A stretch of DNA of 37,656 nt from a bacterium (GTDB taxonomy: Bacteria > Bacillota_I > Bacilli_A > RF39 > UBA660). The position numbers and the translations under genes were made by a program. Each line of letters begins with the position of its first letter. The first letter of the stretch is position 1. The notes beneath the pieces were generated by a model, which had not been told where the DNA came from, did not search any database, and saw nothing but the letters and a program-made list of their open reading frames with translations. Shown here one piece after another: positions 3,001 to 18,251 of the stretch. The stretch is taken from contig JAUNFK010000010.1 in NCBI GenBank assembly GCA_030525085.1, positions 1 to 37,656 on the forward strand, read 5' to 3'.

Positions 3001-6000
3001 TGAACTTAACATCAAAAATGGTTCAGCTGCATCAGTATATGGTGGCGGAGAAGGACAAAATACATTCGTAAGAGACAACGTAGACGTCACAATAGGTACT
3101 ACTGAAGAGGGTCCAACAATAAGTGGAAATGTCTATGGTGGTTCAGCATACGGAACTGTAAACGCTAAAACAACTTCAGAATCATCAAACAATCAAACCG
3201 TAAATGTAACAGTTAATAATGGAACTATAACTGGCGACGTATTTGGCGGTGCTAAAGGAAACGCAACAACAGTCCCTTATGTCAAAGGTAAAATAACCGT
3301 TAACATTAATGGAGGAACAATCGCAAATGTCTATGGTGGATTCGATGCAAACGGACAGCCAGAAAACGACGACTATGTTTATCTAAATGGTGGTGTAATC
3401 GGTTCAGCCTTTGGTGGAGGTAAAAATACATCACAAACTGAAACCAACATTTATTTAAGAGGAGCACAAGCTGATTACATATATGGTGGCTCAAATCAAA
3501 GTGGTACAGTTAACCTAACAAACGTTTATATCGAATCAGGAACATCTAACTATGCTTTTGGTGGCAACAACTTAGGCGGAACCTGTGAAGAAACAAACGT
3601 AACTATGACCGGAGGTAAAATCACTGAAGGTGTCTTCGGTGGTGGCAACAAAATAGAAACACAAAACACAAACCTAACCATAAGTAATGGAACCGTAAAC
3701 AACGCCTATGGTGGAGGAAATAACGCAGGTGTAACCGGAAAAACAAACATAAACATAACCGGTGGTGACATAAGCAAAGCCTTCGGTGGTTCAAACGAAA
3801 CCGGAACAGTTGCAGAAAGTAACATTACCCTTAATGGTAGCTCAGCTACACAAAATCAAGATGGTGGCTTAGAAGCAATAATTACTCCAACAACAAGAGC
3901 AATTGCTGACTGGGAAAAAACAAACTATGGTACAAACTTCAATCAAGTCGTAACTGTAGACGTTGAAATAAAAAACAACTCAAGTAAAACAATTAGTTCT
4001 TGGGAAGGAACAATAAATATTCCTAAATCAAAACTATATTATAACTACTCATCAGATACAAACGTAGTTGATACAGACGGTAAATACACATTCACAAGTG
4101 CTGGAAGATGGACAAGTGGTTCAAATCACGTACTAGCTCCAGGAGCATCATACAAATTCAACTTTACCATTTTCCAAGAAAACACATACTTCACATCAGA
4201 ATACAAAATAACTGGTAAAAACGATGCCAATGAAGATTTAATTCATACAAATACTGGTTTTAAAATTTTTGGTGGAAACAACAAAGGTGGCATTACAAAT
4301 AATGCAAACGTCTTTATTAAAAACGGCTATGCCTTTGAAGTATATGGTGGTGGAAACGAAGCAGACGTAAATAATCCTAACGTATCAATTACTGGTGGAA
4401 CAATAAATAACGTCTATGGTGGTGGAAATGCAGCAAACATCATAAATGATACAAACGTAAACGTTACCGGCGGTGAAATCACAAATAACATTTACGGTGG
4501 CGGAAACTTTGGTGAAGTTCTAAAGAGTACATTTGTCTACATCACTAATGGAACAATCAAAGGCTCAGCATATGGTGGTGGAAACGGTGCACCAGCAATT
4601 GTAAATGAAAACACAAACATAACCGTAAGCGGAACAACAACTATAGGAACAGACGAGTGTACAAAGAAAGCCAATTGTTCACTATTCGGTGGCGGAAACG
4701 CAGCAGCAACAGGAAAAAATAACACATCGAAATCAACTGTTAATCTAGCAGGTGGTTACATATACGGAAATGTCTATGGAGGAGCTAATACATCAGTAGT
4801 AAATGGAGATGCTATCGTTAACGTAGCAACAAGTGCCCTAAGCGATAACACAACAAAAGCCCCAATAACTCTAAAAGGTACTATCTTTGGTGGAGGAGAA
4901 GCAAACGCCAGTGGTTCAGACACATACGACTACTCATTTATCAGTGTTACCAAATCAATCACCGTTAATCTAGATGCAACAGACTTCAATGGCATCGATA
5001 TCAAAGGATCAATATTTGGTAGTGGTAATGCATCAAGTTCATCTGGTACAAGTATTATCAACGTAACAAAATTTGGTAGTGATGAAGACCCTAAAAAAAT
5101 AACATCAATTCAAAGAACCGATATTCTAAATATTGATAACTCAGGTCTAATCCTTATTGGAGCAACAGATAGAACTAATGAATACTCAGACACACTATTT
5201 ACCTTATCAATCATTGGTAAGCTAAATCTAAAAAATAACTCATCACTATATTTAGAAAGTGGAACAAACTTATTACAAGAATTTAATAGTTTAGTTGATA
5301 ATGATACACTTGCTGAAGTAGTAATCGATGAAGAAACCGGAGACTATACAAGAAATGTAGACAATCGTATCTATGCTCTAGAAGGCGTAAAAGCCATCAA
5401 CATCGCTAAAGGTGAAACAATCGATGAAACAGCAACGGACTACGGAGAAGTAAACGGTATGACATTCTTTGGTTTATACACATACAATGCAAGCGGACAC
5501 GTTAATCCAGGAATCTATAAAAAATCAATTCAAAATGGTGACGAACTAAACTGGGGAGACATGCCAACTCAAGGTTCATACGTTCTTGGATTACACAAAA
5601 CAAACCATGACATCACAAAAGATGGTTTCTATAGTAACTTCATGGATGAAGAAACATCAAAAAACAAAGTTAACTATATTAATCCAACCCCAGAAAATTC
5701 AGACTTCTACATGTGGATTATTGGTGAACTTATCGTTGAATACAACATCGACCTTAGTGCATCAAAATACTCAACGCTAGGTATCAAAGAAGTAAGTTTC
5801 TATGACTTTGCTGATCCTAACACAAACTTCGAAATTCTAGGATTTGACTACTCTAATCTAAAAGAAGGCGTAGAGCTTGTTACAAGAGAAGAAGTACCAA
5901 GAATAGCTGAAACAACAACAGACGCTGATAACATCATGAGTCTTAAAATGGAAACTGGTTCAACTGGATGGTTAAATAAAGGAGAAACAGTCCTATTAAG

Positions 6001-7636
6001 CAAAGAGCCAAGCATTATTGGTGACAAAAAATATATTGGTGAAAACTCTAACTCAGTACCAACTCTAGCATTCTACTTATACCACTCTAAAAACTTAGGC
6101 TCTACCGATGACATGGGTAAAGTAAGTATCGTCGTAATGGCAATAAGAAGAATAGATGGGCTAACAAGTGAAACCAAAAGAATCGTTATTAACGTTAATC
6201 TATCAAGAGTTCAATATAACACTAACGATTATGAAGGTGCAATTACATCTGGAAGAAAATATGAAATCTTCCCAAGCACTGCAGTAGACATCACCGATAA
6301 AAGCTCAATAAGCGCATACTTCTCACTATATAAAGATGGTGAAAACGTCTACAAAGACGGTGACAATAGAGCACTAGTATCAACATCCGTATTACCACTT
6401 AATACTAAAATAACTATGATTGATTTAAGTGAAACAACTCCAAAATACTATTATCATACAATCAATCAAGCAGATGTAACAAGAGCAGAAACTGAATTTG
6501 CTTCTCATGGAGACGTATCTTATCCACTATCATCATTTGAAATAATGGGAGCTTTAAACAGTAACGTCTATTATAATAACGGTAATAACAATGCTGACTA
6601 CTATAATGCATCTAGAAATTCATCATCAGAAGAATTTATCTTTATACTAGACTTCGAAGACACAAACATTGAAGCAGACATGCTAAACAATCACCTAATA
6701 CTTGAACTAAAAGATAATCAAAATGAAACTAGAATAAGCATTTTAGGTAATCAGTATGACATGATGAGTTATGATATCTACACTGGAAAAGATGCAATCA
6801 TCGATATTGAAGGAACAATATCAAAAGACACAATCTATAGTGGGGAAGACTTCATGCTAGACTTAGAAACAGAGTATACGCAGTCAAAATCAGGTTCAAC
6901 AATTATCAATGATACAAAACTACTAGATTCTAAACTAGGAATTAAAATATCTCTAATTGATGAAAATGGTAAAGCAGTATCTGGAACAAGTTTAATGGGT
7001 TTATACTATGAAATAGATGGTGAAAAATACTATCCAAACTTAGATGGGACCGTAAGAATCAAAATTGCTGAAAAAATAGGTAACGTAAAAACATGGATTA
7101 CAGTTCATACAGAAAACTCAAATATTCCAACAGGTGCGTACACAGTAAGAATCGACTCATTCGGTTCACCTGACGGAATCTACTATGGTCTTAACCCATC
7201 TGACACATTGGAAATCCCAATTAATTACGTAAATGAAAAATATGGTTTAGACATTCAAATAGATAGTAAGGATCTTATAATAAATAAAGAAACTGGCACA
7301 AATATTGATGGAAATAGCATTCTTGAATTTACTATAAAATATAACTCAGTATTTGAAAATCCAAGCCTTGATATGAAGCTATACCGAAGAAGCTACAATG
7401 AAGTCTATGATACAAATTATGAACTAGTAAATCTTCAAGACTATCTAGATATGACACTAATCGAAAAGACTGGCATTGAAAATGAATACGTCGTATCAAA
7501 TAATCCGAGCGATAATGCGAAATTAAGATTAGCACTAAAACAAGGATTACTAAATGGAACATATAAATTAGAATTTATTCTATATGATAACGATTCAAAA
7601 ATAGGAACTGTAGAAAAATATATTATAATAAAATAA
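2..7636 (+). CDS. Giant repetitive surface protein (adhesin-like), 5' end missing
   Basis: The frame is open from position 2, so the gene begins outside the window; the TTG at 131 is internal. The visible part is 2544 residues. Residues 263-330 resemble an InlB-type (Listeria-Bacteroides) repeat with FNGWLTEYP and a final FYASW. Residues about 757-1680 carry some 20 or more repeats ending in VYGGG, AFGGS or IFGGG-like turns every 20-40 residues, a pattern expected of a parallel beta-helix. A beta-sandwich-like insert (about 1289-1416, with SSWEG and LAPGAS) interrupts the repeats and resembles carbohydrate-binding CBM2-type modules. The C-terminal 850 residues look like several beta-sandwich domains. 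No LPXTG signal or C-terminal membrane segment is present, so how it is held on the surface is unclear. A role in adhesion or matrix is inferred from architecture only. Many codons are Asn, Thr, Gly and Ser. Confidence 0.85.
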   Translation: MNTNRTVAALATNANNSTINNISLSGIEYNIAEDANYQTTSAGLLINDNQNNNINNIQVDMTDNNQNSAILIYNYNNSTVSNIIYHINNLNLFNNADSSNITSYGYNKTDNIITFENQYPVKSIINILNKNSNLSWTYANNTIRLMNTGVEDVEPVAEVSGITSHESGITNDTVYVNDFIADYDYYMGLNYTTSTNQHIPTRLSKNIYSDNNLVYVATTYKGADYNNQNIGNVSLTETQNTYIYYKVYEINTNGTEDTSDDYVEFDLIDNPFADRPNNKAFNGWLTEYPNANITLDQDIYVRKVKIPVTYDNDKPKPIEITFYASWITARTYNLTGNNWNNAFNYFYEAGLELANGTISYWDIEDLYYDVTVARNGQLLVGDYQESNWYGWQEVTSNTTCRTNGGCQVKRPASGTDYSASRTYYAKSTNSGGWNSTSFTRTTPQYITETNNLVNIGDLAGGLYRAVTLPYGESLNGYYNDNAVLQTSGTCNQRTGCAYFELINLKNENGTVETVVEGVEYYFLVTRDTNIAFVTGNISGVWSNQTKPFTLTAINNDTNNINSTYWNQNSTVQVGADTRIEMLRISSGQNMQNNDNTPSSTRTIYGNYHNLKIGRGITQYNNYASFDSAAGGSTSFSGTTVQTYTFIVESGFYNNLGLTTTTSSSGTHYVMAYGTYGNDYDRVNNNNDNFIVQYCASGSWAGTIRSTSTSAVALNVTVKSGNIGKNNYDYAAGLYVGGRNNGNHYVLRSAIIEGGTQANVIGGPLSVESNVKSGNTFLNDTFIYIKGGTPSIIVGGAGASSTYGNRVIQVTGGTVGYAVFGGSNGVTGSDGGSYPGILYGDSYVYIGGHAVIGNDSNTNHSVSAVESGSVFGAGNGNSSSVGVGSVNNSYIVIDGEATIKKNVYGGGNYGATGYGNSTTYNPSNTEILIAGGTINGSVYGAGNNNGAGNYAHTITSGGGWNQTRVNFYDIDSNIKINMTGGNVKTGIYGGSNISGIVYGSTELNIKNGSAASVYGGGEGQNTFVRDNVDVTIGTTEEGPTISGNVYGGSAYGTVNAKTTSESSNNQTVNVTVNNGTITGDVFGGAKGNATTVPYVKGKITVNINGGTIANVYGGFDANGQPENDDYVYLNGGVIGSAFGGGKNTSQTETNIYLRGAQADYIYGGSNQSGTVNLTNVYIESGTSNYAFGGNNLGGTCEETNVTMTGGKITEGVFGGGNKIETQNTNLTISNGTVNNAYGGGNNAGVTGKTNINITGGDISKAFGGSNETGTVAESNITLNGSSATQNQDGGLEAIITPTTRAIADWEKTNYGTNFNQVVTVDVEIKNNSSKTISSWEGTINIPKSKLYYNYSSDTNVVDTDGKYTFTSAGRWTSGSNHVLAPGASYKFNFTIFQENTYFTSEYKITGKNDANEDLIHTNTGFKIFGGNNKGGITNNANVFIKNGYAFEVYGGGNEADVNNPNVSITGGTINNVYGGGNAANIINDTNVNVTGGEITNNIYGGGNFGEVLKSTFVYITNGTIKGSAYGGGNGAPAIVNENTNITVSGTTTIGTDECTKKANCSLFGGGNAAATGKNNTSKSTVNLAGGYIYGNVYGGANTSVVNGDAIVNVATSALSDNTTKAPITLKGTIFGGGEANASGSDTYDYSFISVTKSITVNLDATDFNGIDIKGSIFGSGNASSSSGTSIINVTKFGSDEDPKKITSIQRTDILNIDNSGLILIGATDRTNEYSDTLFTLSIIGKLNLKNNSSLYLESGTNLLQEFNSLVDNDTLAEVVIDEETGDYTRNVDNRIYALEGVKAINIAKGETIDETATDYGEVNGMTFFGLYTYNASGHVNPGIYKKSIQNGDELNWGDMPTQGSYVLGLHKTNHDITKDGFYSNFMDEETSKNKVNYINPTPENSDFYMWIIGELIVEYNIDLSASKYSTLGIKEVSFYDFADPNTNFEILGFDYSNLKEGVELVTREEVPRIAETTTDADNIMSLKMETGSTGWLNKGETVLLSKEPSIIGDKKYIGENSNSVPTLAFYLYHSKNLGSTDDMGKVSIVVMAIRRIDGLTSETKRIVINVNLSRVQYNTNDYEGAITSGRKYEIFPSTAVDITDKSSISAYFSLYKDGENVYKDGDNRALVSTSVLPLNTKITMIDLSETTPKYYYHTINQADVTRAETEFASHGDVSYPLSSFEIMGALNSNVYYNNGNNNADYYNASRNSSSEEFIFILDFEDTNIEADMLNNHLILELKDNQNETRISILGNQYDMMSYDIYTGKDAIIDIEGTISKDTIYSGEDFMLDLETEYTQSKSGSTIINDTKLLDSKLGIKISLIDENGKAVSGTSLMGLYYEIDGEKYYPNLDGTVRIKIAEKIGNVKTWITVHTENSNIPTGAYTVRIDSFGSPDGIYYGLNPSDTLEIPINYVNEKYGLDIQIDSKDLIINKETGTNIDGNSILEFTIKYNSVFENPSLDMKLYRRSYNEVYDTNYELVNLQDYLDMTLIEKTGIENEYVVSNNPSDNAKLRLALKQGLLNGTYKLEFILYDNDSKIGTVEKYIIIK
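2270..5040 (+). repeat. Degenerate in-frame repeats coding for GG-turn beta-helix units
   Basis: Within the giant gene, short units ending in codons for V/I/A-Y/F-G-G-G/S recur, for example near 2605, 2705, 2810, 3033, 3128, 3236, 3403, 3478, 3630, 3700, 4338, 4408, 4488, 4565, 4682, 4768 and 4880. Spacing is irregular (about 60-120 bases) and the DNA is diverged, so this is an old protein-level repeat rather than a recent DNA tandem array. The stretch 3866-4255 is a non-repeat insert. Confidence 0.8.
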
Positions 7637-7645
7637 GGAGGACTT

Positions 7646-7756
7646 ATGAATACAAATTTAGAAGAACTAACAGATAAAGAACTATTACAACTTTATAAAC
7701 ACATTTCAGAGTTTATAAAAGAATTAGAAGATATGCAAAAGAAAGAGAGTGAGTAA
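7646..7756 (+). CDS. Small 36-residue helical protein of unknown function
   Basis: A 36-codon ORF begins at ATG 7646, with a strong site (AAGGAGG) overlapping the stop region of the giant gene 9 bases upstream. It ends at TAA 7756, one base before the likely ATG of the next gene. The product begins MNTNLEELTDKELL and is rich in Glu, Lys and Leu in a heptad-like pattern, suggesting one amphipathic helix or short coiled coil. The good ribosome binding site and the snug placement between two genes support it as real. It has no signal peptide or membrane segment. Function is unknown; it could partner the downstream helical protein or be translated mainly to couple the two genes. Confidence 0.65.
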   Translation: MNTNLEELTDKELLQLYKHISEFIKELEDMQKKESE

Positions 7757-7757
7757 G

Positions 7758-9269
7758 ATGATTGATAAAATAAATGATGATATAACTAAAATTCGTGAAA
7801 ATATAAACATATTACCTCACACTAAAAAAGCAGACAAGAAAAAATATATTGAATATTTAGAAAAAACGATTTCTGACTATCAAGTTATTCAGCAAGAAAT
7901 AAAAACAGAAATTATTAAAAGAAAAAATAAATATTTAGAAATAGTTCAAAACCCTAAAATAAATGAGCTATCAAATCTTGAAATCGATTACAACAAAATA
8001 TTGTGTCTTAGTCCTCTTACAAGTTCCTTAAATAAAATGGAGTTAGATATCAATCTATTTAAATTAAAATACTACTACAAAAATAATATTAATGAAGTAA
8101 ATGATGCTATCAAAACAATAATTAATTTATTTAAAAAGGGTGGTATCATAATAACTATAGATGACTTTAATTACCATAATTATGTCAAAGAATACATGAA
8201 GATGGTCTTTACAAAAAGCATTGAAGAAAAAACGCTATATACTGAATTTGAAAAAATATATTGGGCATGCCCCGAAATAATTAGTATCATTAGACTAAAC
8301 TTTTATAATATTTATTTTAAAAATAAAAAGAAAATAGACGCATACTATACAAAAAAATATAAAGATGCTAATCTAAACACATATACAGATAAAATAATTA
8401 ATCAGCAAAAAGATTACTCAAAACTAATTCATAATGACAAAAGGTATATTATAGATAAATTCCTAAATAGTGAATTACTAATAAATGACTACAGTGAAAC
8501 TAACATAACTAAACTATTTAATAGATATTTAAATGATAAAGAAAACGAACACAACTATGATAATCTTCTTAAACTATCACTAAATTTAAAAGAATATAAA
8601 GAATTTACCGACTATAAGCCAATACTAGAATCAATTACAAATCTATACAAAGATAAAAATACCTTTCAAAATCTTTATAATAACAAATTAAAAGAAATAA
8701 ATAAAAATGAAAGTACGCTGTTCTCCTTAAATAAAAAACTAAACAAAAAAGGTTTATTTAAACCAAAAGAAGATAAACAAAGAGAACTTTCATTAAAGAT
8801 TGATAATCAGCTAGAAACTCTTAAAAATCAGTACAATGAACTAGAAGAACTAAGCATAAAAGACCAAATCTATAATAACATTAAAGATGATACAGATTTA
8901 AAAGAAATTCTAGAAATAATATCAATAAATATCAAATACTTTTATGATTTCTATAAAGAAGAATATACAAATCTAACCATTGAAGAACTAGTAAAACTAA
9001 TTAATAAATTAAAAAATTACTTATATACAAATAATTTAAATATAATATCTAACGTTAAAATAATCGATAATGAAAACATCTGTCAAAACATTACTGACCA
9101 TTACTCTTTATTAAATATAAACATTAATGAAAATGACCTTAATGAAGAAATTGACGCAACAATTAAAAATATTGATACAATCATAACTTACTATGATATG
9201 AAAAAACTTAATCTCGATATAAATGAAGTAGATTTCTTAGTTCAAACGCAAAAAAATAATATCGCCTAA
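7758..9269 (+). CDS. Helical, coiled-coil-rich hypothetical protein
   Basis: A 503-residue protein if started at ATG 7758; a GTG at 7749 in frame would overlap the upstream small gene and is less likely. It is very rich in Lys, Asn, Ile and Glu, with no signal peptide or membrane helix, so it is probably cytoplasmic. Predicted helices dominate. The clearest coiled-coil stretch lies around residues 300-365, between LYNNKLKEINKNES and NQYNELEELS. I recognise no catalytic motif or named family. It follows the giant surface gene and the 36-residue ORF without a visible terminator, so these three are probably co-transcribed. A new promoter lies just downstream at 9281. Function unknown. Confidence 0.75.
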   Translation: MIDKINDDITKIRENINILPHTKKADKKKYIEYLEKTISDYQVIQQEIKTEIIKRKNKYLEIVQNPKINELSNLEIDYNKILCLSPLTSSLNKMELDINLFKLKYYYKNNINEVNDAIKTIINLFKKGGIIITIDDFNYHNYVKEYMKMVFTKSIEEKTLYTEFEKIYWACPEIISIIRLNFYNIYFKNKKKIDAYYTKKYKDANLNTYTDKIINQQKDYSKLIHNDKRYIIDKFLNSELLINDYSETNITKLFNRYLNDKENEHNYDNLLKLSLNLKEYKEFTDYKPILESITNLYKDKNTFQNLYNNKLKEINKNESTLFSLNKKLNKKGLFKPKEDKQRELSLKIDNQLETLKNQYNELEELSIKDQIYNNIKDDTDLKEILEIISINIKYFYDFYKEEYTNLTIEELVKLINKLKNYLYTNNLNIISNVKIIDNENICQNITDHYSLLNININENDLNEEIDATIKNIDTIITYYDMKKLNLDINEVDFLVQTQKNNIA

Positions 9270-9337: not shown

Positions 9338-9955
9338 ATGAAATATATATTAAACTTTATAAAAGGAACATTATTTACTTTATGGCTTATGATTGCTATA
9401 TTTGCCACAGTTTGCTTACTATCATATAACGACTATCAAATAAGTGAATTTGGAAAATATAGTCTGCTTATAATAAACAATAAAGAACTAAGAAGTGTTT
9501 ATGAACAGGACTCATTAGTTATTATTAAAAAAGCCAATGAAGAAGAATACAAAAAAGGCGACAAAATTTTATTCTATTCAGGAAATCCAGAAGTAGTAAA
9601 CTATATCAATCTTGGGGAAATCACTGATGTTCAAACCGTAAATGGTGCTCAAGCATCTTACTACATTGGCGACTACAAACTAAGCTATGATGATATTATT
9701 GGTAATGTAAATGGCTCAATTGTATACAAAAAAGCTGGTTTAATATTATCAATTATTGAATCACGTTGGGGCTTTATGTTCTTCGTTATTCTTCCAACAA
9801 TCTTCTTTGCAGTATATGAATTATATGCGATTATTAACGAAGTAAAAAATAATTCTAAAGTAGACTTAAAAGAAGAATTAAGAAAAGAAATTGAAGAAGA
9901 AATGCGACAAGAAGAACTAAAGAAAAAAGCAGAAAATGAAAAAGAACAGAACTAA
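9338..9955 (+). CDS. Signal peptidase I-like protein lacking catalytic residues
   Basis: 205 residues with the layout of S26B (SipW/ER-type) signal peptidases: an N-terminal membrane helix (about 5-28), a beta-rich middle, a second membrane helix (about 144-168) and a charged tail. Middle segments such as YKKGDKILFYSG (71-82) and YDDIIGNV (117-124) line up with the intact paralogue at 19935, where the same places read IKVGDVITFNS and YDDIIGKV. The TGSMEP box is replaced here by INNKELR (46-52), putting Lys49 at the serine position, and the THRV histidine box is replaced by NYINL. It should therefore not cleave peptides by the usual Ser-His mechanism. As the first gene of an operon with TasA-like genes, it may be a chaperone, scaffold or docking subunit; that is inference. 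Its 3' end overlaps the next gene by 20 bases. Confidence 0.75.
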   Translation: MKYILNFIKGTLFTLWLMIAIFATVCLLSYNDYQISEFGKYSLLIINNKELRSVYEQDSLVIIKKANEEEYKKGDKILFYSGNPEVVNYINLGEITDVQTVNGAQASYYIGDYKLSYDDIIGNVNGSIVYKKAGLILSIIESRWGFMFFVILPTIFFAVYELYAIINEVKNNSKVDLKEELRKEIEEEMRQEELKKKAENEKEQN

Positions 9956-10535
9956 AAAAATATTGTGGATAACTGCAATATTCTTTGCATTTATAGCAGC
10001 AACTTACATAATAAACGAATCATATGCACTACTACAAACTATTGCATCTGGAAATGCTGAAACTAATACAGGAAGCTGGACAATAAAATTAAACGAAAAA
10101 AATATCTCCAATGGAGTCACCGAAAGCTTCACCTTAAACAACATAATATACGATGAATCAGATGATAACATTGAGAACGGTTATATAGCTCCAGGAAAAA
10201 GTGGTTACTTCGACATTATATTGGATCCAAGTGGTACAGATGTAGCAATAAGTTATGAAATAAACGTTAGATTAGATGAATGTGATTATCCAGATAATAT
10301 AAAGCTCAGCGTAGAAAACACTAGTGCAGACGGAAAAATAGACCAAGATGGAAACACATTTAAAGGATTAATAAGTTTAGATGATATTAAAAGTAATAAG
10401 ACAATCACTTTAAAATTAACTCTAATTTGGGAAAACAATGAAGAATTTAATGAAAGTGATACAAACTTAGGAATTGAAGAAGCAAACAAACTTAAAATAC
10501 CAATTACTGTAACTCTAAATCAATACCAAGGTTAA
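9936..10535 (+). CDS. TasA/CalY-like secreted protein (SipW-dependent type)
   Basis: 199 residues with a hydrophobic export segment (about 9-30) ending near NESYA, followed by the SGNAETNTGSWTIKLN stretch typical of camelysin/TasA-like proteins, in which the mature beta-sandwich starts just after the signal. The rest is predicted beta strands with conserved elements such as IAPGKSGYFDI and a late LTLIWENNEE. It is a clear paralogue of the minus-strand gene at 17667, which has SRWNIKLN and IAPSSEGTFDI at equivalent places. The start overlaps the upstream peptidase-like gene by 20 bases, so translation is probably coupled. In Bacillus, TasA-type proteins are cleaved by SipW and form extracellular fibres or surface layers; a similar role is inferred here. 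Confidence 0.8.
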   Translation: MKKNRTKKILWITAIFFAFIAATYIINESYALLQTIASGNAETNTGSWTIKLNEKNISNGVTESFTLNNIIYDESDDNIENGYIAPGKSGYFDIILDPSGTDVAISYEINVRLDECDYPDNIKLSVENTSADGKIDQDGNTFKGLISLDDIKSNKTITLKLTLIWENNEEFNESDTNLGIEEANKLKIPITVTLNQYQG

Positions 10536-10552
10536 GAAAAGAAGGGATAAAA

Positions 10553-11230
10553 ATGGGAGTACTAAAAAAAATAGTTAAAATAATAACTAATACAATACTT
10601 GTTATTTTATTTATTATTCTAGCAGTCATTATATTTGTTAAAGCCAAAACTCTGCTTAATGGCAATAACTATTTTTAACTTTTTGATTACTCCTTATTTG
10701 ATGTTGAAACCGGCAGTATGGAGCCAGAAATAAGCAAAAACGACATTATCATAACTAAGAAAAGTAGTAGTTATGAAATAAATGATGTTATCACATTTGC
10801 TAAAGACAAAAATTATATAACTCACCGCATTTTAAGCAAAAATAATGATACATATATAACAAAAGGTGATGCCAATAACACTGCTGATAATCCCGTAACT
10901 AATGAGGCTATTATTGGTAAAGTAATAAAAGTATATCCCAATCTAGGTATATGGAAAGAAGTATTTACTAATCCTAAAATATTAGTAATTATATTTGTAA
11001 CTTTAGTAATATTTGATATAGCTTTCTCCTATGAACCTAAAACTAATAAAAAAATTAATATTAAAAAACTAAATAAAGAAGAACCAGAAATAACAAAAAA
11101 TGAAATAAAAGAAATCAAAGATAACATAGATGATTTAGAAGAAGACTACACTATAAGGTTAGATTTAACTCAAATTCAAAAAAACATCAACAAAAAAATA
11201 AATAAAGAGGATAAAATAAACAATGACTAA
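10553..11230 (+). pseudogene. SipW-type signal peptidase interrupted by an in-frame TAA
   Basis: ATG 10553, after a GAAGGG site, opens a frame coding an N-terminal membrane helix of 41 residues ending at TAA 10676-10678. The same frame then continues without any shift to 11230 and carries the full catalytic domain: TGSMEP (Ser55 counting the stop as 42), ITHR (His91) and TKGD (Asp106), then a second membrane helix and a charged tail. No ATG, GTG or TTG lies between the stop and the catalytic serine; the first ATG, at 10718, is the Met just after that serine. A separately started product would therefore lack the nucleophile. Everything else in the frame is intact, so this is a recent nonsense change, a read-through stop or a sequence error. 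If read through, it is a 225-position S26B peptidase serving the flanking TasA-like proteins. Confidence 0.75.
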
Positions 11231-11804
11231 CATAATTAAAAATATAAATAAAACAAAATTTTTATTCTTTTTTAAATACATTGCTATATTTATTTTAGTT
11301 GTTTTTATCATTAATATAATGGAAATAACTTACTCAAAATATTCTTCATCCGCAGAAGGAAATGCCGCTGCAAATATAGCATTTTTCATCGTTGATGTTG
11401 GTACATACGAAAATACAATTTCACTAAACGATTTAGTACCAAGTAACTCAGACTATATATACAAATTTAATGTTAATAACTTTAAAAATGGGAAAAGAAC
11501 AAACGTTAAACTAGACTATAGTATTGAATTTACCACTACTACAAACCTTCCACTAACATATAAAATATATAGAGGGGAAGGGACAGAAAACGTTATAACT
11601 AGCAGTGAAATCATTCAAGATGGTGACATGTACTTTAATAAGCTAAACACAAACCAAGTAGGATCATTCTCATATGAAGAAAATCAAACAGACGTCTATA
11701 CATTAGTAGTAAACTTTCCAATAACATACAACGATAAACCAGACGAATATCAAGGTCTAATCGATTCATTTATAATCAAAATAAATGCAGAACAAAGAAT
11801 ATAA
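11223..11804 (+). CDS. TasA/CalY-like secreted protein
   Basis: 193 residues with a long hydrophobic segment (about 14-36), the MEITYSKYSSSAEGNAAANI junction seen in SipW-dependent TasA-like proteins, and a beta-rich mature part with no cysteine. It begins 8 bases inside the interrupted peptidase gene, with a GAGGAT ribosome binding site, and is the last gene of the operon before a hairpin terminator. The family forms extracellular fibres or surface layers; here the role is inferred from the signal region, size and pairing with a peptidase gene. It is diverged from the other TasA-like proteins of the window, sharing mainly the N-terminal pattern. Confidence 0.7.
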   Translation: MTNIIKNINKTKFLFFFKYIAIFILVVFIINIMEITYSKYSSSAEGNAAANIAFFIVDVGTYENTISLNDLVPSNSDYIYKFNVNNFKNGKRTNVKLDYSIEFTTTTNLPLTYKIYRGEGTENVITSSEIIQDGDMYFNKLNTNQVGSFSYEENQTDVYTLVVNFPITYNDKPDEYQGLIDSFIIKINAEQRI

Positions 11805-11830
11805 GAGAGATATTTTAATCTCTTTTTTTA
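11805..11830 (+). terminator. Intrinsic terminator after the first SipW/TasA operon
   Basis: AGAGAT (11806-11811) pairs with ATCTCT (11818-11823) over a 6-base loop and is followed by a run of T. It starts at the stop codon of the preceding gene. Confidence 0.65.
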
Positions 11831-11842
11831 ATTATATTTGTA

Positions 11843-11851
11843 TGTTATAAT
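11843..11851 (+). promoter_or_regulatory. Extended -10 promoter of the ATPase/DUF2357 operon
   Basis: TGTTATAAT is a perfect extended -10 element; no good -35 is visible, only the T-rich tail of the preceding terminator. It lies 25 bases before ATG 11877, which has an AGGTGA site. Confidence 0.6.
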
Positions 11852-11876
11852 ATAAAATGTAAGAGTAGGTGAAGAT

Positions 11877-12785
11877 ATGAAGTTTATTAAAAAACACAAA
11901 ATTATTTTTTTAAGCCTACTTATTATCATCATGTTACCACTTACAATAACTTTCTCTAAATACATCTATTCCAAAGTAATAGACTATATCTTAGAAACCA
12001 AAAAGTTTTACTTTAACAGTGATAAACTAACCAAGGACGGTAAAATATATGAGATAAATAACTGGTCAGGAACAGACCCTTTTAATATTGAGTTTGATTT
12101 AAACAACAGAAAAAATAATCTTCTTTATAGTGATAGTGATATTGAATATGAATTAAATGTTGAATGTGAAGAAGAAACATTATGCTCAATAACTAATAAA
12201 ACTGGCGTAATATACAAAGAAGAAAACAGTGAAGTCTTTAACCTTACAATTACACCTAAAAGAGTATTTAATGTAAATGAAGAAATAACCGTTAAAGTAG
12301 CTGGAAAATCTTTATCACCTTATAAAAAAACTTTATCAGCTACTTTTAAAATAAAAGTAGGAACCCAAGGATTAACTTATGAAATAAAAGATGCAAGTCT
12401 TCAGCCATACTTAATGTTTAACATAACTAACACAAGGCAGTCATATTTTGCAAGAACAGCCTTTGGTAACTATAATGTTGGTGATGAAATCATCGCAGAA
12501 GATTATCTTGCTTTATCAGATGCTGATAAACAAAACTTTAGTAGTGCTCGCATAACTCTATCATTTGATCCAAACGTTGTCATCTTAGATACAACTGCAA
12601 ACATTACTGAAAGTAGTGACAAACTATACACAACAGTAGATGGTGTTTCCTACATAAGCTCAATCACATTCGATATGGATGCGGTTAGTAGTAAAGCTAT
12701 CAGATTCTATAAAAAAGACACCAGCAAAGATTACACATATCCAATAACTACAACAACACCAATTATTAATTTTAGTGCATTATAG
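11877..12785 (+). CDS. Secreted or membrane-anchored beta-rich protein of unknown function
   Basis: 302 residues. A basic N-terminus is followed by a membrane/export segment (about 9-26) ending in TFSKYIYSKV, faintly like the SipW-type junction of its TasA-like neighbours. The remainder is predicted beta, with two or three sandwich-like domains (about 40-100, 100-160 and 165-300). One pair of cysteines close together (CEEETLC, about 97-103) could form a disulfide outside the cell. I do not recognise a named family. It is the first gene of the operon that carries the McrB-like ATPase, DUF2357-like protein, SipW and another TasA-like protein, so an extracellular substrate or receptor of that machinery is a reasonable guess, no more. 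The next gene starts 9 bases downstream. Confidence 0.65.
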   Translation: MKFIKKHKIIFLSLLIIIMLPLTITFSKYIYSKVIDYILETKKFYFNSDKLTKDGKIYEINNWSGTDPFNIEFDLNNRKNNLLYSDSDIEYELNVECEEETLCSITNKTGVIYKEENSEVFNLTITPKRVFNVNEEITVKVAGKSLSPYKKTLSATFKIKVGTQGLTYEIKDASLQPYLMFNITNTRQSYFARTAFGNYNVGDEIIAEDYLALSDADKQNFSSARITLSFDPNVVILDTTANITESSDKLYTTVDGVSYISSITFDMDAVSSKAIRFYKKDTSKDYTYPITTTTPIINFSAL

Positions 12786-12794
12786 GAGGTAAAA

Positions 12795-13766
12795 ATGGGT
12801 AGTAAAATAGAAATATACACAAACTACATTGAAAATTGTTTATTTACTTACTTTAAATATCTTTTAGGTAAAACATATAAATATAGTATAGTAAAAATCT
12901 TTATAACGAAATACATAGAAGTAAGATACTATAACAATGCAATTTACAGAGACAAGAATCTATCAGACAAACTAGGAAAAGAATTTAAATTAATAGCTAA
13001 AGAACTAATGAAAGAAGATGATTCTGATAGTGAGCTAATTAAAAATATCTGCGCATTATTTGGTTATGTTTTATATTTTGATGATGCCTGTGAGTATACA
13101 GACCTTAATATATTAATTGATTCACTATTTGAAGAAACTTATGTTTTAGCAGATACTGATATTAAACCTGAATTTACTAATTTCATCAAAGAAACAATAA
13201 CTAAAAAAGAAGCATATCACAAACTATTCACTACTAAAGAGTTTGACCTAAAATATAAGAGATATAAGAAAAATGTTTACAAAGTAACTATTGAAAACAA
13301 CATAGATGTAGGTAAGTTATACAGTGACTACGCTAAAGAAAAAGCCTTTAATGAAGGAACAATAAATGAAGATAAAAACTATGTTTTAATTAGAATACTA
13401 TCTGAAAAGCTTTTGCAAGATGCTATCAAAAGTGATTTCACTCAAAAATATATCATTGAATTACCAGAAACATTCTTTGCAAAGCCTAAAAAATACAAAA
13501 AACTAATATCAATGTTAGATAACGATTTAATTAGAAGCAGAATAAATCTTAAGATAACTTATGAAGAATACATGAATCATAAAGAAATAATAAACGAATC
13601 AATTAATTTGGGAATAAGCTTTGCCCTAGAGTTAGATGAAACATTTGACAACTCATTTAATACTCTAGTATTATTTAAATATGTTATTGTATATGAACAT
13701 CTTGACTGTTACGATGCTCTAACCGAAGACAAAAATGCTTTTGGAACAACAATAATTACACTATAA
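12795..13766 (+). CDS. Hypothetical soluble protein co-encoded with the McrB-like ATPase
   Basis: 323 residues, mixed alpha/beta, without a signal peptide or clear membrane helix. It is preceded by a strong AGGAGG site and followed 10 bases later by the membrane-tethered AAA+ ATPase, so the two are surely co-expressed. I do not recognise the N-terminal two thirds. The C-terminal part (about 250-305), with NLKITYEEYMNH, LGISFALELDE and later FKYVIVYEH, has the spacing of the closing strands of an EAL-type TIM barrel, but the metal and catalytic residues of a working phosphodiesterase are not seen. That resemblance is weak. A role as adaptor or regulator of the ATPase module is inferred only from gene order. 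Confidence 0.6.
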   Translation: MGSKIEIYTNYIENCLFTYFKYLLGKTYKYSIVKIFITKYIEVRYYNNAIYRDKNLSDKLGKEFKLIAKELMKEDDSDSELIKNICALFGYVLYFDDACEYTDLNILIDSLFEETYVLADTDIKPEFTNFIKETITKKEAYHKLFTTKEFDLKYKRYKKNVYKVTIENNIDVGKLYSDYAKEKAFNEGTINEDKNYVLIRILSEKLLQDAIKSDFTQKYIIELPETFFAKPKKYKKLISMLDNDLIRSRINLKITYEEYMNHKEIINESINLGISFALELDETFDNSFNTLVLFKYVIVYEHLDCYDALTEDKNAFGTTIITL

Positions 13767-13776
13767 GGAGGTACAT

Positions 13777-15306
13777 ATGAACACATTTTTAAGATTCCTA
13801 TATGAATTACTAAGCCAGTTCTTTTCTGGATTTAAAAATATCTTTGTTGGTCTATTTAGTGGCATTGTAACAATCTTTAATGTAAACAAGTACATAAGCA
13901 TTATTCAAGACTATAAAAAAGACCTAAGCGTAGGCGAGTGGATACTAGTTGTTCTAATAATGTTAATTATTGTCGCAATCTTAGCTTTAATAATATTCCT
14001 ATTTGTTATCTTAATTAAAAAGATATTTAAATTCAAAAAAACACTTGTCGAACAAGAATCTTTAATTGAAGAAATTGGCGATTTAAATGGCAAAGTAGCA
14101 ACAATGATGAAAGAAAAAGAAGAAATTCTCGCAATGAAAGTAAGTCAAATTGGCTTAAAACCTAACGAAAGTGCTACTGAAGAGCCGGGCTCAGAAGAAA
14201 ATGAAAACGAATTAGGTGATGATGCAAACATCAGATTCTCAAAATTAAACGAAATAGATATCGAATTTAAAAATTACAAAATTCAAAACTACAATAATAG
14301 TTTCACCTTACCAGAACTTGTTGAGCTATTTAGAAACTTTGCCGCATCTCAGTTAAAACTATACTATTCACCAGAAATGATTAGATTATTTATATCAGCA
14401 CTAGCGTCAACAAAAATCGTTATTTTACAAGGTATTTCTGGTACAGGTAAAACATCACTTGCATACGCATGGGGAAAATTCCTTAAACATGACTCATGTA
14501 TCGCATCAGTTCAGCCGTCATGGAGAGACCGTTCTGAAGTATTCGGTTACTTCAACGAATTCACACGCAAATTTAATGAAACAGATATCCTAAAAGAAAT
14601 ATACAAAGCAGGATATACCGATGACGTGTACACGATAATTCTAGATGAAATGAACATCTCACGTGTAGAATACTATTTTGCCGAAATGCTATCAATTCTA
14701 GAAATGCCAAACCATGATGAATGGATAATCGAAATCGTATCATCTGCCTGGAAAAATGACCCAGTTCACCTAAAAGGTGGGAAACTACACATCGCTGACA
14801 ACGTTTGGTACATTGGTACAATCAACAACGATGACTCAACATTTATGGTAACAGATAAAGTATACGACCGTGCCATGCCAATCGATATCAACGACAAAGG
14901 TAAAGTATTTACACCAATCGATACACCAGCTCAGGATATCAACTACTCATACCTAAATAATTTATTTCAAACGGCAATTGAAACATACCCAATGTCAGAT
15001 GAAATGTATGCTAAAATCGAAGAAATGGACAACTACGTTATTAAACATTTCCGTATTGCTTTCGGTAATCGTATCGTAGCTCACATGAGAAAATTCGTAC
15101 CAGTATATGTAGCTTGTGGTGGAGAAGAAGTATCTGGAGTAGATTACTTCATCGCCCGTAAGATCTTAAGAAAATTCGAGCAGTTAAACATCTCATACAT
15201 TAGAGATGAAATAGATGATTTTGTAAAATACTTAAATACAACATTTGGACAAGACAAAATGCATGAATGCATCGAATACGTTCAAAGACTTAAGAAGATG
15301 TCATAG
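13777..15306 (+). CDS. Membrane-tethered McrB-like AAA+ ATPase
   Basis: 509 residues. A hydrophobic N-terminus (possible reentrant or membrane segment about 8-33, strong membrane helix about 54-81) is followed by a short coiled coil and an acidic linker (about 85-150), then an AAA+ domain of the McrB/MoxR-dynein group. Walker A is GISGTGKTS (219-227), Walker B is IILDEMN (287-293), and a sensor-1 region GTINNDDST (347-355) leads to KVYDRA (361-366), which supplies the probable arginine finger. The STF...KVYDRA form fits McrB-like ATPases that pair with DUF2357 or McrC-like partners. Such a partner is encoded 8 bases downstream. McrB itself is a soluble restriction motor, so a membrane anchor is unusual and suggests work at the membrane, perhaps on export or assembly of the surface proteins in this operon. 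The role is inferred. A strong GGAGG site precedes the ATG. Confidence 0.85.
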   Translation: MNTFLRFLYELLSQFFSGFKNIFVGLFSGIVTIFNVNKYISIIQDYKKDLSVGEWILVVLIMLIIVAILALIIFLFVILIKKIFKFKKTLVEQESLIEEIGDLNGKVATMMKEKEEILAMKVSQIGLKPNESATEEPGSEENENELGDDANIRFSKLNEIDIEFKNYKIQNYNNSFTLPELVELFRNFAASQLKLYYSPEMIRLFISALASTKIVILQGISGTGKTSLAYAWGKFLKHDSCIASVQPSWRDRSEVFGYFNEFTRKFNETDILKEIYKAGYTDDVYTIILDEMNISRVEYYFAEMLSILEMPNHDEWIIEIVSSAWKNDPVHLKGGKLHIADNVWYIGTINNDDSTFMVTDKVYDRAMPIDINDKGKVFTPIDTPAQDINYSYLNNLFQTAIETYPMSDEMYAKIEEMDNYVIKHFRIAFGNRIVAHMRKFVPVYVACGGEEVSGVDYFIARKILRKFEQLNISYIRDEIDDFVKYLNTTFGQDKMHECIEYVQRLKKMS

Positions 15307-15314
15307 GGGTTAAC

Positions 15315-16439
15315 ATGAAAAGGGATTTAAAAATATTTGAACTTTATGATACTAGTAATAAAAAAAGAATAGATGAATTTAATGCTAATGTAAAATCAAA
15401 CTATACAATTGAAACCAACTATGAAAAAAATGATGTCGACTTCGAATGGCTAACTATTATTGAAGAAACCGTTAGATATCTAGATAATATCTTAAGAAGC
15501 CCCAACCGTTTTATCGTAAACGAAGAAGAAGTTGTTCAAATTGAAAAAGCTAGAAAAATAACTGTAGAAAGCATTAAACACTTATCTAAACATACTAACT
15601 TTATTCAAGAAATAGAAGCAAATGGTGACGTTAAGCCATCAAAAATATTAAACATCAATAAAGAAGAAAGCTACAACACATACGAAAATAGATTTATCTA
15701 TACACTTATTTTAAATACAGAACAATTTATTATAATGAGAAAAAAGAAACTTATTCTATCTTCATCACTAAAAGATTATAAAAACTGTGAATATAGTGGA
15801 AGTAGTAGAGTAGGAAGTGAAAATGTTACCTTTAGTTTAAACATTAATTCTAGAGTATTTAGTAAAGAATCAACTAAACAAGAAGAAAATGAATTACTTG
15901 CAAGAATTAAAAAAGTAGAAGACAAAGTAGCTGATCTTAAGAAAAGTGAAGTCTTTAAAACACTTACTAAATTACACGTTGCAAAAGTAGTTCCACCAAT
16001 CAAGAAAACAAACTTAATTCTTAAGAATCCAAACTTTCAATATGCTACAAAATTATGGGATTATCTTCAATCATATAATGAAAAAGTATCATTAAAAAGT
16101 GAAAAAAGCAAAGCAACAATTAAAGATAATCCAGAATTACAAAGTTTGTTAGACAATGCAATCCTTCTTCAGTACTTAGTTCTTAATAGTACTGGTAAAT
16201 CTAAAGATAAAATTTCTGAAGAAGATAGAAGACAAAAAATAGAAGAAATAACCGAAGAAATGATTACTAAAATTGTAGAACTAAATTCTGATTTGCCAAT
16301 GACAAAACTTGAAGAAATAATTGGAGACAAAATAGCAGTAATCCGAAATAAAAAAGAAGCTTCTATTGAAGAAATTCAAAGTAAGTATGACGTTAAAATA
16401 AGACAGTTCTTAGATAAAATAGAGAGCTTTAGATTTTAG
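15315..16439 (+). CDS. DUF2357-like (McrC-type partner) protein
   Basis: 374 residues, soluble and largely helical. Two stretches are typical of DUF2357/McrC-like partners of McrB-type ATPases: YNTYENRF (120-127) and PPIKKTNLILKNPNF followed by LWDYLQSYNE (about 220-250). I do not see a PD-(D/E)XK nuclease signature; the C-terminal 120 residues are charged helix ending in RQFLDKIESFRF. In McrBC systems the C partner stimulates the ATPase and usually carries the nuclease. A nuclease-less partner argues that this module does not cut DNA, or that the nuclease is elsewhere. It lies between the ATPase (8 bases upstream) and a SipW gene (8 bases downstream). Family assignment is from remembered motifs, so moderate. 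Confidence 0.7.
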   Translation: MKRDLKIFELYDTSNKKRIDEFNANVKSNYTIETNYEKNDVDFEWLTIIEETVRYLDNILRSPNRFIVNEEEVVQIEKARKITVESIKHLSKHTNFIQEIEANGDVKPSKILNINKEESYNTYENRFIYTLILNTEQFIIMRKKKLILSSSLKDYKNCEYSGSSRVGSENVTFSLNINSRVFSKESTKQEENELLARIKKVEDKVADLKKSEVFKTLTKLHVAKVVPPIKKTNLILKNPNFQYATKLWDYLQSYNEKVSLKSEKSKATIKDNPELQSLLDNAILLQYLVLNSTGKSKDKISEEDRRQKIEEITEEMITKIVELNSDLPMTKLEEIIGDKIAVIRNKKEASIEEIQSKYDVKIRQFLDKIESFRF

Positions 16440-16447
16440 GTGATAAC

Positions 16448-17017
16448 ATGAAACAATTTATAAAAAAAATAAAAGAAAATAAAATACTTAACATTATTAC
16501 TAAGATAATAAAAACAATCTTATATGTAATTTTAATAGGGCTATTATTTGTTATACTAGTTCAAAAAGTATCTAGAAATAACCTTTCACTAGGTGGAATT
16601 AAGATATTTACTGTAGTAACTGGCTCAATGAAACCTGAATATGTTGAAGGAGACATGCTTGTATCAAAAGAAGTTGCTCCAGAAACAATCAAAGTAGGTG
16701 ACAACGTAGTATATCAAGGTGAAAAAGGAGATATGAGTGGCCTTATAGTAACCCACAAAGTTATTTCAGTAAGAGAAGAAAATGGTAAATACTATTTTAA
16801 AACCAAAGGAATTGCAAACGAAATAGGCGACCCAGAAATAAGTGAAGACCAAATATATGGAAAAATTATTTATAAAATGGGTTTCTTAAGTATTTTAAGT
16901 AGAGTAATGTTAAATATATATGCATACTACATTCTTGCAACAATAATGGGACTTTTAGTTTCTATTCAAGTTGTAAAAATAATATACGATAATGATGATG
17001 AAGAAGAGCAAGAATAG
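16448..17017 (+). CDS. sipW: SipW-type signal peptidase I (S26B), intact
   Basis: 189 residues. An N-terminal membrane helix (about 20-40) is followed by the catalytic domain with TGSMKP (nucleophile Ser60), IKVGDNVVY (81-89), VTHKV (His103, the general base that replaces Lys in this subfamily) and an acidic GDPE (127-130), then a C-terminal membrane helix (about 153-176) and an acidic tail. All catalytic elements are present, unlike the paralogue at 9338. It should cut export signals at the outer face of the membrane. It is preceded by an AGGTGA site, follows the DUF2357-like gene by 8 bases and overlaps the next TasA-like gene by 26 bases, which marks that protein as its probable substrate. 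Confidence 0.88.
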   Translation: MKQFIKKIKENKILNIITKIIKTILYVILIGLLFVILVQKVSRNNLSLGGIKIFTVVTGSMKPEYVEGDMLVSKEVAPETIKVGDNVVYQGEKGDMSGLIVTHKVISVREENGKYYFKTKGIANEIGDPEISEDQIYGKIIYKMGFLSILSRVMLNIYAYYILATIMGLLVSIQVVKIIYDNDDEEEQE

Positions 17018-17678
17018 CGAAACAGAAAGAAGAATAAGAAGAAAAGTTTTTCTAAGATTACTAAAAAAATCTATTAAACCTAAAAATCTTATTTTTCTAA
17101 TAATAATTTTATCTGCAAATACCTTTGCTTGGTTTGTTTACGTTAAAGAAGTTCACACAGACATAAATGTTAAGGTAAGAGCATGGAATGTAGTATTAAC
17201 AAACTCGGAAAGTGAAGTTGTAAACACAATCAATATCGATATAACATCAGCATACCCAGGAATGGAAGAGTTCTCAAATGAGACAAAAGTATACAATCAA
17301 GGAGAATCAAAGGCTGATTTTAAATACACAATTCTTTCAGTCAATGCTTTCGGTAATGAAATTTTCACAAGTGAAAAAATAATTGCCGATGGTGGAACTC
17401 CAACAGATGAAAATCCAACAAGTGCCGAATTAGAAAGTTACTTAAAAGAAGGTATTAAATACCCGTTTAAAATAGAACTATCAGCATCAAATGATAAACT
17501 AGAACCATTAAATGGTGAAGCAACATTCAACGTAAAAATGAACTGGCAATATGAATCTGGCAATGACGAACTTGATACAAAGTGGGGAACTGACGCATAT
17601 AACTACAAAAAAAACAATCCAGATGAACCTGGATTAAAAATAGTAGTAGAATTAAAAATAACACAATCAGTTAGCTAA
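16992..17678 (+). CDS. TasA/CalY-like secreted protein
   Basis: 228 residues. A strongly basic N-terminus with several Arg and Lys precedes a hydrophobic segment (about 32-48) ending in SANTFAWFVYVKEV, the SipW-type cleavage region. The mature part starts with INVKVRAWNVVL and is beta-rich to the end, which reads LKITQSVS. The same C-terminal KITQ is found in the convergent gene at 17667. Translation may start at any of three tandem ATG codons (16992, 16995, 16998) inside the end of the SipW gene; no separate ribosome binding site is obvious, so coupling is likely. Its last codons form the left arm of a shared hairpin terminator. It is a probable fibre or surface-layer subunit. Confidence 0.75.
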   Translation: MMMKKSKNSETERRIRRKVFLRLLKKSIKPKNLIFLIIILSANTFAWFVYVKEVHTDINVKVRAWNVVLTNSESEVVNTINIDITSAYPGMEEFSNETKVYNQGESKADFKYTILSVNAFGNEIFTSEKIIADGGTPTDENPTSAELESYLKEGIKYPFKIELSASNDKLEPLNGEATFNVKMNWQYESGNDELDTKWGTDAYNYKKNNPDEPGLKIVVELKITQSVS

Positions 17679-17691
17679 TTGTGTTATTTTT
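17655..17691. terminator. Bidirectional terminator built from the last codons of two convergent genes
   Basis: A perfect 13-base stem (17655-17667 with 17678-17690) encloses a 10-base loop. It has A runs on the left and T runs on the right, so it can act on both strands. Both arms code for Lys-Ile-Thr-Gln in the two TasA-like genes, which overlap by 12 bases here. Confidence 0.85.
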
Positions 17692-18251
17692 ATATTAACT
17701 GCCATTATAGCTTTACCATTATTATAAGCAGCAGTTGTATCATCAGCATTAGTCATTGTTTGAGTTTCTTCATCATCATTCCATTTAATAAAGAAGTGAT
17801 AAGTTATTACTTTATTATCATTTAACATAAAATCAGCAATTAAATTACCATTATAAGTATATTCCGTTGGTTCATCGTCGATTGTATACTTGGTAATAAC
17901 TAAATCTTTAACATCACTGTTTTCACTAATACCAATATCAAAATCTAAAGAATAAGCAGTATCAGTTTCTGAACCATCAATACTTATATCAAAAGTTCCT
18001 TCAGAGCTTGGCGCAATAATACCAGCTGCCGTATATTCATCACCATTAAAAGTGGGAACAATGGCATTACTAAAACTTGAACCATTAGTAATATCAAAAT
18101 CATTTAATTTAATATTCCATCTTGAAATAGTAATATCTGTATTACCAGATGCTGAAGTTACATACTTTGCATAAGTTTTTTCAATAGAAGAAAGGCAAAT
18201 AAACAATGCAATTAAAGCAAGTAATAATCTAAATTTCTTTTTAATTATCAT
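17667..18251 (-). CDS. TasA/CalY-like secreted protein
   Basis: 194 residues on the minus strand. A basic start and hydrophobic segment (about 7-24) lead into EKTYAKYVTSASGNTDITIS, the typical junction of SipW-dependent TasA-like proteins, then SRWNIKLN and a beta-rich domain with IAPSSEGTFDISI and a late FFIKWNDDEE. It closely parallels the product of 9936 in layout. Start: ATG at 18251 with AAAGGG upstream on the minus strand. It converges on and overlaps the TasA-like gene at 16992 by 12 bases, and both end with KITQ. It has no peptidase of its own, so it probably relies on the neighbouring SipW enzymes. TGA is used as its stop. Confidence 0.8.
   Translation of the reverse strand: MIIKKKFRLLLALIALFICLSSIEKTYAKYVTSASGNTDITISRWNIKLNDFDITNGSSFSNAIVPTFNGDEYTAAGIIAPSSEGTFDISIDGSETDTAYSLDFDIGISENSDVKDLVITKYTIDDEPTEYTYNGNLIADFMLNDNKVITYHFFIKWNDDEETQTMTNADDTTAAYNNGKAIMAVNIKITQLAN

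Follow-up and report, generated by a model that had tools for sequence, protein, structure and literature searches.

A membrane-anchored McrB-type ATPase and its DUF2357 partner in a conserved SipW signal peptidase operon: a candidate envelope machine

The window analyzed here is a 37,656-nucleotide stretch of DNA (contig JAUNFK010000010.1 of GenBank assembly GCA_030525085.1, read on the forward strand) from a bacterium of the RF39 lineage UBA660, and it carries an operon in which an AAA+ ATPase of the McrB group and a DUF2357 protein lie among SipW-type signal peptidases and secreted proteins. Genes are referred to by their first position in the window. A preliminary description of positions 11,877 to 17,678 recognized six open reading frames on the plus strand, and all six are present, at 11877..12785, 12795..13766, 13777..15306, 15315..16439, 16448..17017 and 16992..17678, with gaps of 9, 10, 8 and 8 bases between the first five and an overlap of 26 bases between the last two. 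These genes do belong together, as that description proposed, but the operon is wider than it supposed, spanning 9338-17678 and beginning upstream at gene 9338 with four further genes.

The ATPase gene, 13777..15306 on the plus strand, encodes a McrB-type nucleoside triphosphatase (NTPase) whose family profile matches Escherichia coli McrB structures (E 2e-6) and which matches PADLOC family PDC-M26A at 1.9e-33. A membrane segment lies at about residues 55-82, in keeping with the membrane-anchored McrB-group protein first described, and in 87 of 88 homologues the charges around it follow the positive-inside rule, with the AAA domain on the cytoplasmic side. The N-terminal part consists of this segment and a linker, and carries no domain for modified-DNA-binding specificity. 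Across 16 diverse ATPase homologues the Walker A (GxSGTGKTS), Walker B (LDEMN) and N.DDST motifs are kept; the window protein has an NNDD signature of the NxD type, and N-x-D-[DE] is found in 175 of 178 ATPase sequences, mostly as NNDDST and NKDDST, these being the sequences that show a GT.N pattern and including some near-duplicates. When the ATPase is aligned without gaps to E. coli McrB, the second D can also be placed on the NxxD position of the latter, so that a deletion giving rise to NxD is not proved. A crude search for heptad periodicity, as a sign of a coiled coil in the ATPase, scored no higher than shuffled sequences.

Immediately downstream, gene 15315..16439 (plus strand) encodes the DUF2357 partner that the preliminary description had named, carrying the McrC N-terminal domain (PF09823, E 7.8e-14). 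Its structural model is of moderate quality (predicted local distance difference test, pLDDT, 76.8; predicted template modelling score, pTM, 0.49) and contains a predicted long beta-hairpin (residues 151-184) and C-terminal helices; distant DUF2357 homologues have long tails rich in Lys and Glu. Within the limits of profile sensitivity, no nuclease family was found in 41 DUF2357 proteins of all architectures, 15315 included. The apparent absence of a nuclease from genes 12795, 13777 and 15315 is borne out by family profile searches, and the suspicion that a PD-(D/E)XK fold might be hidden in 12795 or 15315 finds no support, since the former is EAL-like and the latter, for which the model is moderate, lacks any nuclease family match.

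The gene preceding the ATPase, 12795..13766 on the plus strand, encodes a cytoplasmic protein with a helical N-terminal region. Its AlphaFold2 model is confident (pLDDT 93.6), and the top 43 Foldseek matches in the PDB are all EAL domains, the best being FimX (4ag0, E 5.6e-4, probability 1.00); only this best match passes E 0.001, and TM-scores are about 0.3-0.5. There is no Pfam EAL match, and the catalytic EAL motifs, as generally known, do not fall in columns that are invariant, or nearly so, across 50 homologues. On its predicted structure we confidently assign 12795 an EAL-like fold without catalytic motifs, a pseudo-EAL. The family occurs in 23 of the 117 genomes examined from the bacterial family to which the window belongs, all of them among the 32 that have the ATPase, and always adjoining it. 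In five relatives (loci L112-L116) it is fused through an acidic linker as the C-terminal part of a SipW-type peptidase of the same type as gene 10718, with E values of about 1e-22 to 1e-26 for the SipW part and 1e-70 to 1e-76 for the 12795 part. SipW C-termini are expected to be cytoplasmic, given a topology of two membrane segments, and thus to lie on the same side of the membrane as the AAA domain. The 12795 domain was sought in SipW tails of other families and not found.

Three genes of the operon are SipW-like. Gene 16448..17017 (plus strand) encodes a SipW/archaeal-type signal peptidase (TIGR02228, E 2.8e-22) and is intact, as had been claimed: the Ser, His and Asp positions (SM, TH, DP) are conserved in 78 orthologues. 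Gene 10718..11230 (plus strand), a SipW-type signal peptidase with a cytoplasmic tail, also matches TIGR02228, in a frame containing one in-frame TAA, because of which the called open reading frame lacks its N-terminal membrane segment; the frame runs upstream through that segment (window 10536-10718). Intact copies are present in relatives, with SM, THR and GDANNT..D conserved in 53 orthologues, and the TAA reflects either a real pseudogene or an assembly error. Gene 9338..9955 (plus strand) encodes a SipW-like membrane protein located upstream of the trio of 12795, ATPase and DUF2357 genes in most relatives; neither SM nor TH is conserved among 73 orthologues, and with the catalytic Ser and His missing it is a candidate pseudo-peptidase.

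Interspersed with these are genes for secreted proteins, all on the plus strand. Those at 9936..10535 and 11223..11804 encode small secreted proteins that are candidate SipW-type substrates, each kept in place in relatives, the former without a significant family match and the latter without any. Gene 11877..12785 encodes a secreted or anchored protein of 302 amino acids that belongs to no known family and is conserved just 5' of 12795, and 16992..17678 encodes a further candidate substrate, with a TFAWF-type signal region, which lies 3' of SipW in 75 relatives. The block is closed by a convergent gene on the minus strand (17667..18251) for a secreted protein related to 9936, and most relatives have a homologue there, likewise on the opposite strand.

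This organization is strongly conserved. The block is kept in about 70 related genomes, and most of 80 loci fetched from related gut and rumen genomes share the order 9338-9936-10718-11223-11877-12795-ATPase-DUF2357-16448-16992 followed by the convergent secreted gene. Median gaps along the 11877-to-16992 genes are 11, 9, 14, 4 and -4 bases in 73-79 relatives, the first of these, between 11877 and 12795, being taken from 73. The ratio of nonsynonymous to synonymous substitution rates (dN/dS) relative to the nearest relative is 0.03 for the ATPase, 0.07 for the DUF2357 gene and 0.09 for 12795, and 0.03-0.12 across 11877 to 16992; with dS close to saturation, these sequence comparisons suggest that strong purifying selection acts on the 11877-16992 genes.

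The association with SipW greatly exceeds chance, as measured in 30 genomes picked for carrying the ATPase, with expected counts calculated from uniform placement and rounded genome sizes. A TIGR02228 gene lies no more than 6 kb from 26 of 33 full-length ATPases (0.82 expected) and from all six ATPases of a 600-amino-acid type with five transmembrane segments (0.11 expected); conversely, 58 of the 90 SipW genes in these genomes are within 7 kb of an ATPase. SipW adjoins in 24 of 24 fetched SipW-type loci from many families, and the order SIPW-ATPase-DUF2357-SIPW recurs across other families. Five of the seven full-length ATPases not so placed belong to a lineage associated with giant surface proteins, a sixth (L143) has an adjacent SipW gene that was found by a purpose-built SipW profile, and at the seventh (L175) the ATPase has no DUF2357 partner and neighbours a giant secreted protein. 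We note that L131 and L175 each carry a SipW-type ATPase that has no DUF2357 gene next to it and lies close to a gene for a secreted protein of more than 2300 amino acids. The preliminary description named as a refutation of its proposal the finding that the trio usually occupies defence islands with no relation to sipW/tasA; these counts do not refute its surface-machine reading, and in the window itself the operon is flanked by housekeeping genes (cdaA, ybbR, a phosphoglucomutase-type gene, gpmI and clp), with no defence cluster found in these flanks.

The ATPase-DUF2357 pair also occurs in other surface settings. The same genome contains a paralogous pair adjoining CpaB/RcpC-like, CpaF-type and TadB/C-like genes, the TadB/C-like call being made by size and membrane pattern only. 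The gene upstream of this Tad-linked paralogue belongs to the 12795 family (hhalign E 6e-16), and 3' of the pair lies a gene for a membrane protein with Asp-rich repeats whose C-terminal end resembles the SipW-linked secreted proteins by eye; neither of two Tad-linked paralogues has SipW within 6 kb. In other families the pair follows a giant surface protein (2000-2900 amino acids) and a membrane GGDEF-EAL-like protein, in which GGDEF-like regions are recognizable in 8 of 9 and EAL-like regions in 9 of 9 (best 4e-20), without the signature motifs. An hhalign comparison of the 12795 family with this GGDEF-EAL family was not significant, so any kinship between them rests on fold and shared gene position. 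Soluble relatives about 35% identical are found on plasmids, in AAA-X-ATPase-DUF2357 sets. In a tree of AAA domains the Tad-linked and giant-protein groups fall inside the SipW-linked group or next to it, and the plasmid group and a group with 12 transmembrane segments stand apart; the root of this tree is uncertain, and E. coli McrB could not be placed in it because its branch is too long.

Several further arrangements were recorded. Loci L158-L162 (for example L158:9252-11960) encode ATPases of 900 amino acids with 12-14 predicted membrane segments together with a DUF2357 gene; they have no SipW gene nearby and no secreted neighbours that recur consistently. In loci L147-L151 (L148:6627-12656) a single DUF2357 gene is surrounded by two or three ATPase genes, adjoining genes for giant secreted proteins, and where three ATPases are present the first is very divergent. 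In L152-L157 (L152:7832-17991), SipW, an ATPase with five transmembrane segments and a DUF2357-like gene are accompanied by an ABC transporter ATPase and permease and by secreted proteins.

Elsewhere in the window, 131-7636 is an open reading frame of 2501 amino acids without a Pfam match, possibly encoding a surface protein, and a homologue of 1150-2100 amino acids lies up- or downstream of the operon in many relatives. A protein of 506 amino acids (7749-9269), without Pfam or PADLOC matches, likewise recurs near the operon in relatives. The 719-amino-acid Clp-type ATPase at 26908-29067 matches PDC-M37B and DolB in PADLOC and is an ordinary ClpB/ClpC-like protein by Pfam. At 32451-34112 a type II secretion F-domain protein (T2SSF) suggests a type IV pilus-like gene set at the window end.

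Taken together, we think it probable that the operon encodes a nucleotide-driven machine of the cell envelope that is coupled to SipW and either drives or gates how secreted surface proteins are processed and assembled. In this model 13777, a membrane-anchored protein with a cytoplasmic AAA+ domain, would form a McrB-like ring; 15315, by analogy with McrC, would dock into that ring and either activate its hydrolysis or transmit it, with no nuclease involved; 12795 would link the ring to a SipW peptidase at the latter's cytoplasmic tail, the position at which it is fused in relatives; and hydrolysis would then drive or gate processing, release or ordered surface assembly of the operon's secreted proteins. 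Gene content and conservation, the SipW linkage and fusion, the fold, the lack of nuclease signatures and, by the charge rule, the topology are observed; the ring, the complex, the direction of the force and a surface-fibre product we infer.

Several observations weigh against this interpretation. Gene 16992 had been called TasA-like, a designation that is not supported by any significant sequence match to TasA or camelysin; none of the operon's secreted proteins has a significant Pfam, NCBIfam or PDB profile match indicating TasA/camelysin homology, the one camelysin match being weak (0.022), and the fibre product is accordingly a guess from context. Docking of 15315 is likewise proposed by analogy, from a moderate model without a PDB match: comparison of that model with the PDB gave only low-probability matches and did not recover McrC. 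No SipW gene lies within 6 kb of any of seven tandem-type ATPases or of four of the 900-amino-acid type with 12-14 membrane segments. The ATPase is present in 32 of the 117 family genomes, and SipW genes are found in 18 of 20 related genomes without it, pointing to a general SipW function independent of the ATPase; our claim is thus that this type of ATPase depends on a SipW context, and not the reverse.

Among the alternatives, the one that survives best, and that we still consider rather unlikely, is a sensory switch rather than a motor. LapD and FimX are degenerate EAL receptors that have no catalysis and are tied to surface adhesin or pilus function, and by similar logic a nucleotide second messenger, once bound by the pseudo-EAL, would act via the AAA+ ring to turn SipW cleavage or surface-protein release on or off. 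The EAL-like fold of 12795 without catalytic motifs would suit such a role, as would the GGDEF-EAL-like membrane protein adjoining the giant surface protein at the same place in another lineage; the hhalign comparison of the two families, being not significant, counts against it, and ligand binding by 12795 is hypothetical. GGDEF genes are present in 12 of 12 genomes examined, but most of the matches are about 680 amino acids long, which we take to be the size expected of GdpP, a cyclic di-AMP enzyme, and only 2 of the 12 have genuine EAL enzymes, so that a cyclic di-GMP reading stays weak. A bolder synthesis, which we regard as doubtful to almost the same degree, is that the SipW-dependent steps by which surface fibres are processed and assembled are powered or licensed by a nuclease-free AAA+ motor, derived from McrBC, which a nucleotide second messenger gates through the pseudo-EAL. 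If true, such a second-messenger-gated motor would define a novel class of machines for envelope assembly, taken over from a restriction system and at work in three settings or more, among them SipW operons, Tad pili and giant surface proteins.

The preliminary description offered two readings, a surface machine and a membrane-based defence module, of which the former is supported by context and the latter weakened. A defence system of the McrBC kind, in which the ATPase would sense phage or foreign nucleic acid at the membrane and trigger damage or dormancy while the surface genes are hitch-hikers, draws on homology to McrB and DUF2357, both known from restriction, on the soluble plasmid relatives mentioned above, and on the treatment, in the main text of PMC11090510, of related CoCoPALM systems beside CoCoNuT defence systems. 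It is nonetheless unlikely: the operon and its flanks contain no nuclease, HEPN or methylase gene that we could find, the block is chromosomal and conserved among housekeeping genes, phage-record matches are only two and weak, the linkage to SipW is tight, relatives carry the SipW fusion, and a paralogue is Tad-linked. A quality-control or cell-division chaperone for membrane proteins, of the MoxR/RavA or FtsB kind and co-transcribed with surface genes by chance, has in its favour a weak FtsL-like match in the N-terminal region of 13777 (E 0.047) and the assembly chaperones among MoxR-like AAA+ proteins of the same broad clade (RavA-ViaA, PMC3893208), but it is improbable given that, from family to family, the set is linked specifically to SipW and secreted proteins and that it is missing from most family genomes, unlike a division factor.

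If an envelope machine of the kind favoured here is indeed encoded, a restriction-type NTPase pair has been co-opted to build or control the cell surface, and many McrB/DUF2357 genes counted as defence genes would be mis-filed. Most of the hosts are gut and rumen Bacilli that have not been cultured, and little is known of how they attach.

The operon resembles several known systems in part. Like McrBC of E. coli K-12 it has an AAA+ protein with Walker A, Walker B and N..D motifs and a DUF2357 partner next door; it differs in having neither a PD-(D/E)XK nuclease nor a DNA-binding specificity domain, and in an ATPase that is membrane-anchored, bears an N-x-D-(D/E) motif and sits in a surface-protein operon. 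The PADLOC candidate defence family PDC-M26 and the plasmid relatives (L177, L178) share an ATPase about 35% identical, followed by a DUF2357 gene, but the plasmid ATPases are of about 800 amino acids and follow an AAA protein of about 1100 amino acids, with no SipW or secreted genes annotated in the stretches read. With LapD and FimX, the latter its best fold match, 12795 shares an EAL fold without catalysis; it differs in lacking a GGDEF half, in having a signal peptidase and an AAA+ ATPase as fusion or co-transcription partners, and in a ligand site that is only hypothetical. The tapA-sipW-tasA operon of Bacillus subtilis and sipW-calY of B. cereus similarly co-transcribe a dedicated SipW with small secreted proteins, but lack an ATPase, DUF2357 or EAL-like gene, and B. 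subtilis TasA is assembled by donor-strand complementation with TapA (PMC10151520).

The closest counterpart is CoCoPALM, the name given by Bell et al. 2024 (eLife, PMC11090510) to McrBC relatives with signal-peptidase neighbours, in what is, in the main text, one paragraph without functional data; the features given there are an NxD McrB signature, an FtsB-like transmembrane and coiled-coil region on the NTPase and a coiled coil on the McrC homologue. The preliminary description knew of no system with this set of genes, a view that must be revised, since CoCoPALM as described there covers the core. The window locus shares with it a McrB-type NTPase with NxD and an N-terminal membrane region, a McrC-like DUF2357 partner and signal-peptidase-family genes nearby, and its locus family shows both the NxD-type motif and the association with signal peptidase genes, so that the locus largely fits CoCoPALM. 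No follow-up study on CoCoPALM was found in the collection of papers searched, and the main text of PMC11090510 does not include a pseudo-EAL partner, the SipW fusion, secreted substrates, a Tad-linked paralogue or the lineage with GGDEF-EAL and giant surface proteins. Beyond the naming of CoCoPALM, the present analysis adds a proposed pseudo-EAL coupler, its fusion to SipW and a wide range of surface settings, and with these CoCoPALM gains a testable mechanism, in that the fusion predicts direct contact between the peptidase and the ATPase module.

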